35,858 nucleotides of DNA, from the IMG/VR virus record IMGVR_UViG_3300006802_000044, positions 1 through 35,858 of that record; one strand, 5' to 3'. Of this stretch, positions 3,126 to 13,194 are shown piece by piece. Position 1 is the stretch's first letter. Every line of letters starts with the position of its first letter. Made by a program: the position numbers and the translations under genes. Below the pieces are notes generated by a model, which was not told where the DNA came from, made no database searches, and saw only the letters and a list, made by a program, of their open reading frames with translations. This DNA is from a virus.

Positions 3126-4724
3126 ATGTCTGGCATATTTCATATGCTGTTGGGGCAAGTCGTAGGCGGCGGCAACTACACCATCATCGAGCAGTTCCTA
3201 GCCTCAGGAACGTGGACGGCTCCGACCGGCGTTACGTCCGTTGACTACCTTGTTGTTGCGGGTGGTGGTTCTGGCGGCAACTCTTCGGGCGGTGGCGGTG
3301 GTGCGGGAGGTTTCCGTACAGGCACCGCATTAAGCGTCACAGCCGGAACGGATTACACAATAACGGTTGGCGGCGGCGGCGCATCAGTAAACAGTCTAAT
3401 TAGCAACGGAAACAAAGGCAGCGATTCCGTATTTAGCACCATTACCAGCACGGGTGGCGGTTACGGATCGGGAAGCAGCGGGTCTCCCGGTGTTGCAGGT
3501 GGCCCCGGCGGTTCTGGCGGCGGTGGTTCTGGTTCACCGGGCGGGACGGGTGGCCCCGGTAATACGCCTTCCACAAGCCCCTCGCAGGGCAATAGTGGCG
3601 AAGTGGGCGACAACGGATGGGGCGGTGGCGGCGGTGGAGCAGGACAGGCTGGCGGCACTAGCGCACAAAGCAGCGGTGGAAATGGCACCGCATCAACGAT
3701 TAGCGGATCGTCTGTAACTTATGCGGGTGGCGGCGGCGGCAGAAATGTTGGCGCACCAGCCTCGCCGGGCGGGACAGGCGGTGGCGGTCAAGGCGCAGGA
3801 AATGCGCCAGTTAATGCGACTGATGGCACGGCTAACACAGGCGGTGGCGGCGGTGGAAGCCGATCAAGTGTTGCGTCGGGCGCAGGCGGCTCCGGCATTG
3901 TCATCCTTTCCTACGCTATGGCGTCCGGCACTCCGATCACCTTTAAGTCCACAGCAACGTGGACTGCACCGACTGGCGCAACGACGGTGGATTACCTTGT
4001 CGTAGCGGGTGGTGGTGGTGGTGGTTCTGTTATAGGCGGTGGCGGTGGAGCGGGCGGTTTCCGCACCGGCACGGCATTTAGTGTTACGGCAGGCACGGCT
4101 TACGTTGTAACGGTTGGCGGCGGCGGCACGGGCAGTTCAAACAACAGCAATGCAGGATCATCTGGTTCTAACTCTGTTTTTAGCACCATCACATCAGCCG
4201 GTGGTGGTGGTGGTGGAAGTAATAACAACGTCGCTGCCGGTGCTGGCGGCTCTGGCGGCGGCGCGGCAGGAACGGGAAGTTCTGGGGCATGGAATACCGG
4301 CGCAAATGGCAATACCCCGTCAACATCACCGTCGCAAGGCAACAAAGGCGGAGATACTGATACAACGTATCAAATCGCAGCCGGCGGTGGAGGCGGAGCA
4401 AGTGCTGCCGGTCAAAATGGGCCGAATGGTGCTGCAAGCGGTTCATCTGGAAATGGCGGCGCAGGCACGGCTTCAACGCTTTCTGGCAGCAGCGTCACAT
4501 ACGCTGGAGGCGGTGGCGGCGGCGGAAAAACTGCCGGCACAAATGCGCCAATTTCGGCTGGTAGTGGTGGGTCTGGCGGCGGTGGCGCAGGCGGTTCATC
4601 GGGCGCTGGAACTGCAGGAACCGCCAACACAGGCGGTGGTGGTGGCGGAGCAGGATATTCTGGAACGCCAAATACAACGGGCGGTACCGGCGGCTCCGGC
4701 ATTGTTATTTTGAAGGTGAACTGA
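3126..4724 (+). CDS. Duplicated glycine-rich adhesin-like protein
   Basis: The protein has 532 residues, with two long glycine-rich halves. Each begins with the same module (TWTAPTG..VDYLVVAGGG at about residues 29-47 and 279-297) and ends with GGSGIVIL (near 260 and 530). Long GGGG runs are spaced by short Ser/Thr/Asn stretches, compatible with a polyglycine-II sandwich as in the tip adhesins of some T-even-like phages (family knowledge). The internal tandem duplication is evident from the repeated start and end modules. It follows the 2247 gene after 3 bases and overlaps the next gene by ATGA-type coupling. It is probably a receptor-binding tip or fibre. Confidence 0.75.
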   Translation: MSGIFHMLLGQVVGGGNYTIIEQFLASGTWTAPTGVTSVDYLVVAGGGSGGNSSGGGGGAGGFRTGTALSVTAGTDYTITVGGGGASVNSLISNGNKGSDSVFSTITSTGGGYGSGSSGSPGVAGGPGGSGGGGSGSPGGTGGPGNTPSTSPSQGNSGEVGDNGWGGGGGGAGQAGGTSAQSSGGNGTASTISGSSVTYAGGGGGRNVGAPASPGGTGGGGQGAGNAPVNATDGTANTGGGGGGSRSSVASGAGGSGIVILSYAMASGTPITFKSTATWTAPTGATTVDYLVVAGGGGGGSVIGGGGGAGGFRTGTAFSVTAGTAYVVTVGGGGTGSSNNSNAGSSGSNSVFSTITSAGGGGGGSNNNVAAGAGGSGGGAAGTGSSGAWNTGANGNTPSTSPSQGNKGGDTDTTYQIAAGGGGGASAAGQNGPNGAASGSSGNGGAGTASTLSGSSVTYAGGGGGGGKTAGTNAPISAGSGGSGGGGAGGSSGAGTAGTANTGGGGGGAGYSGTPNTTGGTGGSGIVILKVN

Positions 4725-10931: not shown

Positions 10932-10947
10932 AACCTCTCTCTTGGTT
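10932..10947 (-). promoter_or_regulatory. Ribosome leader element, copy 1
   Basis: On the minus strand this reads AACCAAGAGAGAGGTT, identical to three other copies upstream of early genes. It contains the Shine-Dalgarno GAGAGG, and its ends AACC/GGTT can pair, leaving the purine stretch in an 8-base loop. The ATG follows after 6 bases. Confidence 0.8.
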
Positions 10948-11573: not shown

Positions 11574-11589
11574 AACCTCTCTCTTGGTT
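11574..11589 (-). promoter_or_regulatory. Ribosome leader element, copy 2
   Basis: Exact copy of AACCAAGAGAGAGGTT on the minus strand, 3 bases before the ATG at 11570. Provides GAGAGG. Confidence 0.8.
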
Positions 11590-11784: not shown

Positions 11785-11800
11785 AACCTCTCTCTTGGTT
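11785..11800 (-). promoter_or_regulatory. Ribosome leader element, copy 3
   Basis: Exact copy of AACCAAGAGAGAGGTT on the minus strand, 3 bases before the ATG at 11781. This copy has no operator or promoter nearby, showing the leader is separable from the operator. Confidence 0.8.
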
Positions 11801-11985: not shown

Positions 11986-12001
11986 AACCTCTCTCTTGGT
12001 T
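11986..12001 (-). promoter_or_regulatory. Ribosome leader element, copy 4
   Basis: Exact copy of AACCAAGAGAGAGGTT on the minus strand, 3 bases before the ATG at 11982. Confidence 0.8.
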
Positions 12002-12092: not shown

Positions 12093-12266
12093 ATGACACC
12101 TCAAGACCTACTCAAGCATTACGGCAGCCAGCGGGCGATCGCCAGGGCATTCGGGGTCACCGATGCCGCCGTGCTCAAATGGCTTAGGGCCGGCGTACTG
12201 CCACCCCTTAGGGCATACCAGGCCAGGGACCTCCTAGGGCGTCCAGGGCGTTCCAGGCGCGTTTAA
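12093..12266 (+). CDS. Cro-like helix-turn-helix regulator
   Basis: The protein has 57 residues. Residues 3-33 form a Cro/YdaS-type helix-turn-helix: DLLKHYGSQRAIARAFGVTD then AAVLKWLRAG, where helix 2 (QRAIARAFG) and recognition helix 3 (DAAVLKWLRAG) are clear. The tail is basic (RDLLGRPGRSRRV). It is divergent to the early operon with four palindromic sites nearby, the usual Cro position. No Shine-Dalgarno is present, agreeing with a leaderless start. It uses many AGG codons, unlike its neighbours. It probably represses the early promoters and itself. No opposing CI-type repressor was found. Confidence 0.82.
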   Translation: MTPQDLLKHYGSQRAIARAFGVTDAAVLKWLRAGVLPPLRAYQARDLLGRPGRSRRV

Positions 12267-12290
12267 TGACGGTTTATACGGCTTTAAACG

Positions 12291-12316
12291 AAAAACCCCC
12301 GAGGGGGGCTCGGGGG
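12291..12316 (-). terminator. Intrinsic terminator on the minus strand
   Basis: On the minus strand, CCCCCGAG pairs with CTCGGGGG (8 bp, loop of five C) and is followed directly by TTTTT and a T-rich stretch. On the plus strand the same hairpin has no U-run. It would stop minus-strand transcription arriving from the right, before it reaches the Cro-like gene and early promoters. Confidence 0.75.
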
Positions 12317-12318
12317 CT

Positions 12319-12565
12319 TGACGGAGCCGGGAGGAGGCTCTACCTTCGGGATGCTAGTCGAGGTGACGGGAAAATAGCTGCTCGGGAGGGTAGCTGTCAA
12401 ACACCCCCACCTCCCAGCTCGGGAATCCTGGTCGGGGCAACAACGCGCAGGAAACCTCAAACCCAAGCCGGGGCGGCCAGCCCTTGGGCGCGCAGCGTAG
12501 AGCGGAGAAGCGCGAATGGCACCGGGAAACCGGCAAAAGTAGACCGCAGCAGGGTGGCTCCGTCA
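12319..12565. ncRNA. Candidate structured RNA (strand unresolved)
   Basis: TGACGGAGCC (12319-12328) is perfectly complementary to GGCTCCGTCA (12556-12565), closing a domain of about 247 bases. Inside are a CC-TTCG-GG tetraloop (12343-12350), a bulged stem with GGGAGG/CCTCCC plus AGCT/AGCT (12376-12419), CCCAAG/CTTGGG with an inner GGC/GCC (12462-12488), GCGC/GCGC (12490-12513), and a CCGG-GAAA-CCGG tetraloop hairpin (12522-12533). Stable tetraloops favour plus-strand RNA, while the adjacent terminator favours minus-strand RNA. It lacks the signatures of RNase P, tmRNA or tRNA. Not matched to a known class. Confidence 0.45.
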
Positions 12566-12573
12566 GTCACAGA

Positions 12574-12618
12574 TCTGCACGATTTGATCTAGGCGTAATC
12601 CGCTTAAATCCGTGCAGA
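12574..12618. other. Long bulged hairpin upstream of the replication-like gene
   Basis: TCTGCACG (12574-12581) pairs with CGTGCAGA (12611-12618), then ATTT with AAAT, then AGGCG with CGCTT around a TAATC loop. That gives 17 pairs (one G-T) with one bulged C and a 5-base left bulge. There is no U-run on either side, so it is not a terminator. It may be an origin cruciform, a protein-binding site or an mRNA leader structure. Confidence 0.55.
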
Positions 12619-12654
12619 GTCCACCATCAGTCATCACCTCGGGAGAAACGTTAG

Positions 12655-13194
12655 ATGCTAGAAAACCTTGACCAGGATGCTTGGGAACGTTGGAAAGCGT
12701 ATCGACAAGCAATCCGCAAACCGATCAAACCCGCCTCCGAACAGGCCATGCAGCTGAAGCTGTCGAAGTTTGGTGCGGACCAGGCAGAGGTGGTTGATCA
12801 GTCCATTGCCAATCAGTGGCAGGGCTTATTCGAGCCGAAACGCGCAAAATTGCAGCCTGGCGAAAAGCCGAAAAAGTCCGCCGAGCAGATCCAGGCCGAT
12901 GACGCTGCGTTTACGGCCCAGAAAGAGCGCGCAGCCCGGCACTGGGATGAAATCAAAGACACGCCGTTTGGCCGGTTGAAACTCGCAGACGGGCTTTGGT
13001 CGCGATATACCATCGAGCGCGATCTCGATACCGATGACAAACTGGATTGGCTGAAAGGCGTTATCGCCAAGGAGCTGCGCCAAGTGGATGCCGCCCAGGT
13101 GCTTAACGATCCAAATTTAACAACCATGGTGATCTGTTTTTTTGGCCCTGGTGGCGTAAAACGATTGAAAGATCGAGCGGAGGCGAGCGCATGA
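12655..13194 (+). CDS. Candidate replication protein (DnaT/O C-terminal-like)
   Basis: The protein has 179 residues, with GGGAGA 8 bases before the ATG. Residues 1-62 (LDQDAWERWKAYRQAIRKPI, QAMQLKLSKFGADQAEV, VDQSIANQWQGLFEP) match the C-terminal helper-loading region found in many phage replication initiators and DnaT-like proteins: W..W..yR..i.kp, and the Si..qW.GLF motif. The usual N-terminal DNA-binding domain is missing. The rest is charged and helical (RHWDEIKDTPFGRLKLADGL). It is the best candidate for recruiting host helicase, and it lies next to the structured non-coding region. Function is inferred. Confidence 0.6.
   Translation: MLENLDQDAWERWKAYRQAIRKPIKPASEQAMQLKLSKFGADQAEVVDQSIANQWQGLFEPKRAKLQPGEKPKKSAEQIQADDAAFTAQKERAARHWDEIKDTPFGRLKLADGLWSRYTIERDLDTDDKLDWLKGVIAKELRQVDAAQVLNDPNLTTMVICFFGPGGVKRLKDRAEASA

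Follow-up and report, generated by a model that had tools for sequence, protein, structure and literature searches.

A conserved pseudoknotted RNA of uncultivated phages exchanges with an initiator-protein gene and may act in replication initiation

The window considered in this work is the whole of IMG/VR virus record IMGVR_UViG_3300006802_000044 (positions 1 to 35,858; 35,858 nt, i.e., 35.9 kb), and our subject is a gap of 388 bases within it, at 12267-12654, which has a P22-Cro-like gene on one side and a lambda-O-like gene on the other. The upstream neighbour, a repressor gene (12093-12266, + strand), lies outside the RNA described below and matches PF14549, P22_Cro, at 44.1 bits (cut-off 30.2), and the downstream one, referred to here as the O-like gene (12655-13194, + strand), has matches to lambda-O-like and primosomal proteins in their C-terminal half only. 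A first-pass annotation had described the 388 bases as non-coding, and the homologues bear this out: they have stops in all six frames, no conserved protein frame runs across the region, and the length differences of the core are frame-breaking, being non-multiples of 3 in 23 of 35 homologues. A protein-coding region is rejected on these grounds. The minus-strand terminator hairpin reported in that annotation is also present, at about 12291-12316, where CCCCCGAG, a loop and CTCGGGGG come with a T-run on the minus strand; as judged from the sequence and its relatives, it would stop leftward transcription, and it has the same place in all the loci inspected, whichever of the three modules introduced below they carry.

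Relatives of the region, called type A, came from a search of viral contigs with the O-like protein, which returned 23 loci, five of them with the same intergenic element, and from a two-part pattern derived from the element, which returned 112 stretches and, together with the others, 87 distinct sequences. The type A RNA is thus found on more than 110 uncultivated phage contigs. Upstream of it, on the + strand of the window, is a sigma70-type promoter, TTGACG-N17-TACCTT (12318-12346), with an expected transcription start at about 12353 and a dyad, GAGCC..GGCTC, in its spacer. The motif TTGACG-N17/18-TAnnnT precedes the element in 82 of the 87 distinct sequences, and the remaining five lack this upstream part or are not assessable for it. 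The spacer (12324-12340 in the window; type A loci L025-L135) nearly always holds a dyad whose letters vary by phage, as in GAGCC..GGCTC, GATCAC..GTGATC and GGCAA..TTGCC, which is as expected of operators from different immunity types.

The covariation check on homologues proposed in the first-pass annotation was run with an alignment of 36 type A homologues with less than 90% identity. A structure of 42 pairs, including a pseudoknot, is paired in 96.0% of the cells, and changes on both sides occur in 20 of the 42 pairs, in 178 cells. The covariation score is 0.330 as compared with 0.020-0.082 when the partners are slid, and none of 500 shuffles reaches 0.330. Regarding the window sequence taken singly, its folding energy is modest relative to shuffles, with z values of -1.9 for the 388 nt and -1.2 for a 247-nt domain proposed earlier. 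Such values, only 1-2 standard deviations below the shuffles, are what a fortuitous fold in a spacer, with its complementarity due to chance, would show; that explanation is refuted by the 178 compensatory cells, by the 500 shuffles and by the spread over more than 110 contigs, and has practically no chance of being right. The proof of an RNA structure comes from covariation in relatives, the single-sequence folding energy being unremarkable, and it is near certain that the region from about 12353 to 12640 folds as a conserved structured RNA.

This fold differs from the one first drawn, in which a perfect 10-bp long-range helix (12319-12328 with 12556-12565) closed a domain of 247 bases. The letters are present, but the pairing has no support among relatives: only four of 78 have it in perfect form, and 3.3% of shuffled sequences yield a comparable perfect 10-bp pair. 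Its left arm consists of the -35 box and spacer of the promoter, upstream of the expected transcript start, and covaries with its own dyad partner in the spacer, whereas the sequence of the right arm, GGCTCCGTCA, hardly changes. For these reasons we reject the helix, and the closed domain gives way to a compact RNA further downstream. Likewise, the UUCG hairpin described as part of the RNA falls outside it, as UUCG sits in the -10/start region.

All elements of the type A RNA are on the + strand, and its core extends from 12417 to 12571 (model R1, 160 bits). The P3 hairpin (12421-12457, pairing 12421-12430 with 12448-12457) has a variable middle and an invariant loop, with double changes in 5 of 12 pairs, and is followed by the P4 hairpin CCCAAG...CTTGGG (12462-12488), whose inner loop, CCGGGGCRGnCAGCC, is conserved, and which is 100% paired with double changes in five of the six outer pairs. 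The P5 stem CGCGC...GCGCG (12489-12514) is also 100% paired, with double changes in 2 of 5 pairs (13 sequences), and its loop contains the 5' strand of the pseudoknot P7 (12502-12506 with 12543-12547; span 12502-12547). P7 is paired in 98.9% of the cells and doubly changed in three of its five pairs, reading GCGG/CCGC in the window and GTCGG/CCGAC, GCGGG/CCCGC or GCGAG/CTCGC in relatives. The P6 hairpin, CCGG-GAAA-CCGG (12522-12533), is the GAAA-capped hairpin that had been noticed from the start; it is swapped whole in relatives and doubly changed in 4/4 pairs.

The 3' part of the RNA includes repeat R1, GCAGGGTGGCTCCGTCAGTCACA (12549-12571), able to form its own hairpin P8; the P9 hairpin, TCTGCACG...CGTGCAGA (12574-12618), which is the bulged 3' hairpin of the first-pass annotation; and repeat R2, GCAGAGTCCACCATCAGTCATC (12614-12635), a partial copy of repeat R1. 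The 5' arm of P9 is complementary to both repeats, and R1, this arm and R2 vary in concert in all 82 sequences parsed, so that two exclusive pairings are maintained. In L039 (362-653, - strand) and L048, the two repeats are both replaced in concert (GCGGGT..CCGAAAGGCTCA and GCGGGT..CCGAAGGCTCA). These alternative pairings resemble a switch or a co-transcriptional strand exchange, and any role for them would be speculative. The competition of R1 and R2 for one arm in 82/82 sequences, together with the end of the RNA near the O start in many loci, is what would be expected of a 5' leader that regulates the O-like gene, in which R1, the arm and R2 control translation or attenuation with no direct part in initiation. 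We find this very unlikely, because one or two unrelated genes stand between the RNA and O in several loci (clusters c11/c12), the same RNA occurs with O types of different N-termini, and the replacement by DUF1376 and iterons, described below, would be left unexplained.

The searches for known relatives agree with an undescribed phage RNA, as the first-pass annotation had proposed. Rfam 15 gave no match at the gathering threshold in the window, and none for relative L037; below threshold, the minus-strand terminator gives the best match in the window (E 0.078). Isolate phages and plasmids yielded no DNA match to type A or to the type B RNA discussed later, apart from four Vibrio phages matched over 51 bases at E=1, and none of 72,556 plasmid records, searched for a related plasmid origin RNA, showed any similarity. 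Twenty pattern matches in bacterial genomes were dismissed as chance, since they score at most 12.5 bits with the covariance model vs 160, and in 399 Variovorax-order genomes each model had a single weak match (22.5 and 21.4 bits), neither of them close to an O-like gene. All the relatives are metagenomic, and every type A phage found is uncultivated. No description of the RNA was found in the open literature, a coverage outside which most subscription journals fall. As far as these comparisons reach, both RNA families appear to be undescribed, and neither seems to resemble a described one. Structured RNAs are also known from phage or metagenome DNA in GOLLD, ROOL, OLE and HEARO, from which the present one differs in size and context and in having no Rfam match.

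To place this RNA in its operon, we need to consider the gene that follows it. The O-like protein matches positions 221-326 of 346 in phrog_678 (lambda-O-like) and positions 180-253 of 272 in phrog_6451 (primosomal), and no origin-binding domain was recognised in it. The "primosomal protein" phrog_6451 has a DUF1376 match at 1-144 and an O-like match at about 178-257, and its N-terminal half matches the DUF1376 protein that, in locus L008, stands in the place of the RNA; the protein replaced is therefore the N-terminal half of one known protein. The predicted model of the O-like protein is all-helical and locally confident (pLDDT 88.9), with no structural match in the PDB, and from homology, the PDB adding no support, we infer that the protein may bind DnaB. 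The type A RNA accompanies O types of differing N-termini. O-like proteins of about 107 aa (L079, L031, L111, L037), which keep the last conserved domain alone and lack the AWERWxAYRKAIRKPIK part, are found with the type A RNA and with DUF1376.

The occupants of the slot before the O-like gene were counted in a sample chosen by the O-like protein alone (the best 80 of 278 relatives, 78 new loci), to which the covariance models of families A and B (models R1 and R2) were applied; the protein query alignment included A and B loci, and both RNA models were built from the same phage group. Type A occupies the slot in 51 of the 78 loci, type B in 24, and both together in none. In L247 it holds a DUF1376 gene behind the same kind of leader, and the contigs of L236 and L251 stop a short way before O. 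Among these best 80 of 278, each of the 76 loci whose upstream sequence is long enough has exactly one module in the slot. Loci L278-L285, which came from a DUF1376 protein search and have DUF1376 and the O-like gene, are without A or B. Over whole records, DUF1376 is present in 5/5 DUF1376 records and in none of the 39 records of A/B loci. Moreover, Phage_rep_O is absent from 45 records, and a DnaB_C or DnaC/IstB-like protein from 22. In the window record, DUF1376 and Phage_rep_O are missing, as are DnaB-like and DnaC/IstB-like proteins, so it is without a recognised origin-binding initiator protein, as in an RNA-dependent (ColE1-like) origin.

The DNA elements of the slot follow the same division. 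Two to four copies of the iteron GCGAACGCA are present in 11 of 13 DUF1376 loci, vs 0-1 per A/B locus, and the 3' part of the DUF1376 gene has CCAATA-rich AT stretches and iterons in a lambda-type origin layout. The A/B loci lack this lambda-type arrangement of iterons and an AT-rich unwinding region, and the most AT-rich 30-mers near the window element lie upstream of it. The B loci L004, L010, L012 and L019 keep a single GCGAACGCA copy directly before O, apparently a scar of replacement. The cumulative GC skew of the window turns near 12.0-12.4 kb, which coincides with a change in gene orientation; its global minimum is elsewhere.

When the modules are placed on a tree built from 69 O-like proteins, about 23 changes are seen, with clustering no greater than for shuffled labels, and at least 13 of the type A changes are forced by well-supported branches. 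Three sets of identical O-like proteins have different modules. Near-isogenic swaps are found in the pairs L007/L014, L010/L008 and L004/L005, in which the breakpoints lie at the leader or promoter on one side and at the O start on the other. The type A locus L007 and the type B locus L014 share 96.6% identity over the 2.3 kb that precede the leader, and the likeness resumes 10 bases ahead of the O start; for the type B locus L010 and the DUF1376 locus L008, identity is 96% until shortly before the terminator and promoter, and it returns at the O start codon. The cassette is exchanged as a unit and, in the sample of the best 80 of 278 relatives, is always present and single. Nearly isogenic natural phages therefore differ by one cassette, which is either an initiator gene with iterons or a new RNA, before the same O-like gene. 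To our knowledge, no other system has a structured RNA and an origin-binding protein as interchangeable occupants of one slot.

Between the promoter and the core there is a leader domain (12360-12413, + strand in the window), with an outer stem P1 (12360-12365/12408-12413), an inner hairpin P2 (12374-12379/12392-12397) and an invariant GTCAA (12396-12400). It is common to type A, type B and DUF1376 loci (about 2485-2535 in L008 and about 3430-3480 in L284), and its presence with all three modules makes it part of the operon and not of the module. The put RNA of phage HK022 suppresses termination in cis via the zinc-binding domain of the RNA polymerase beta' subunit. It is about 70 nt long with two stem-loops, downstream of PL and PR (PMC9378689), and the type A RNA is likewise placed immediately behind an early promoter, in an early region of lambdoid type. 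On a rival reading, which we consider unlikely, the RNA would act in cis on transcription of the early operon, for instance as a put-like antiterminator that binds the RNA polymerase on its way out of the promoter. The type A RNA is pseudoknotted and about three times the length of put (about 220-280 nt, the core of about 155 nt being followed by a 3' domain), and its exchange with an initiator gene would be left unexplained by an antiterminator. The separate leader (P1, P2, GTCAA), which all the modules share, is the better candidate for a put-like, cis-acting transcription element.

The shared role of the slot is, by inference from these exchanges, replication initiation. The task known for the protein version, DUF1376 with iterons, is origin recognition and opening, and this is the basis for assigning such a role to the slot; the mutual exclusion could reflect instead the swapping of any early module. 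Among the candidates of the first-pass annotation, a new phage RNA, an RNA-primed origin and a packaging site, no support was found for packaging, and the replication-origin role is the best in view of the exchange with an origin-binding protein. Our preferred reading, which we regard as probable, is that the type A RNA would be a transcription-dependent module of replication initiation that replaces the iteron origin and its binding protein. The slot logic fits any origin element, and covariation cannot separate RNA from single-stranded DNA, so folding might be required in the latter form, as an initiation or primosome assembly site. This seems quite unlikely to us, since a promoter and transcript leader precede the element in all assessable sequences and the G-U wobble pairs are on the transcribed-sense strand, the + strand, which fits the + strand as the folding strand.

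If the type A RNA is such an initiation module, it would be transcribed in cis from the early promoter at 12318-12346 and would fold into hairpins and a pseudoknot, followed by a 3' element whose two pairings exclude each other. With DUF1376, iterons and an AT-rich stretch missing, the RNA and the O-like half-protein would have to indicate where replication starts and attract the host machinery. The nascent RNA might stay at its own DNA, through a persistent RNA-DNA hybrid or by anchoring at the transcription site, and, once retained, could open the duplex and/or supply the primer, after which the O-like protein would recruit host DnaB to the opened strand. The choice between an R-loop or primer and an RNA scaffold at the transcription site is speculative. 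The GC skew of the type A region is almost nil (mean 0.014) and AT-rich DNA is missing from it, so a ColE1-like hybrid is not obvious there, and type B is the better case.

Type B RNA occupies the slot in L004, L010, L012, L014 and others, with covariation of its own. In its members (L004, L014, L154, others; model R2), GGGGGTTAGGGGGGT sits in a covarying G-U-rich hairpin, with two subtypes; the GC skew is 0.088, with runs of 5-6 G. The relative L154 has only sub-threshold matches in Rfam, and part of one subtype resembles by eye the GCCGGTGCAATTCCGG stretch of the cobalamin riboswitch, for which Rfam gives no support. We take GGGGGTTAGGGGGGT to resemble G-tract R-loop elements such as the CSB II primer of the mitochondrial heavy-strand origin, a likeness limited to type B, since this G-tract is absent from type A. 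A further locus, L199, is the complete Manatee Spring podovirus genome MW202691, which has an O-like gene, lacks DUF1376 and carries a G-rich GGGGGTTAGGGGGGT element at 3640-3995. This element, which matches model R2 at 7.2 bits only and is recognised by neither RNA model, may be a remote member of type B or else represent a third type.

Replication initiation in cells and in most DNA phages depends on an origin-recognising protein. There are precedents for both parts of the proposed module: at ColE1, the origin is opened by a structured RNA that host RNA polymerase synthesises and that then serves as the primer, with no need for an initiator protein (PMC5043065), and the ori of lambda is located within O, with transcription from PR as its activator (PMC5043065). 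With ColE1 RNA II, the type A RNA would share a structured transcript from a fixed upstream promoter (the promoter and covariation are seen here, the transcript is predicted), the lack of an origin-binding initiator, and the expected completion of initiation by host machinery. It differs in having no sequence or Rfam relation to RNA II, in belonging to phages and not to a plasmid, in the O-like protein of helicase-recruiting type that type A phages keep, and in being without a strong G-rich tract. With lambda ori/O and the DUF1376 primosomal proteins (phrog_678, phrog_6451), the likeness lies in the operon position, a promoter and then ori or initiator, in the retained C-terminal initiator half, and in the predicted transcription through the region; unlike in lambda, the origin-binding half and the iterons are missing and replaced by RNA, and the origin would be outside the initiator gene. 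In its general form the proposal is that two unrelated RNA families, A and B, each replace the origin-binding initiator in dsDNA phages, a transcribed RNA (pseudoknotted) marking and opening the origin with a truncated helicase recruiter of lambda-O type and being freely swapped with protein by recombination; on the present sequence comparisons we would place this slightly above even. If confirmed, RNA and protein origin recognition would be evolutionarily interchangeable, two RNA families would be added, and the near-isogenic phages would already provide the material for comparing origin recognition by RNA with that by protein.

Two further observations concern the neighbouring genes. Some loci have additional frames between the RNA and O, namely an HNH endonuclease-like ORF in the type B locus L014 (2500-3000) and, in 19 loci (L019 at about 2100-2960, L029 and L042 among them), a 251-aa ORF with a small HTH-like ORF. 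In the window, an exact 16-bp repeat, AACCTCTCTCTTGGTT, occurs at 10932-10947, 11574-11589, 11785-11800 and 11986-12001, with 0 occurrences expected by chance; it adjoins the starts of minus-strand genes and is probably a shared ribosome-binding or regulatory site.
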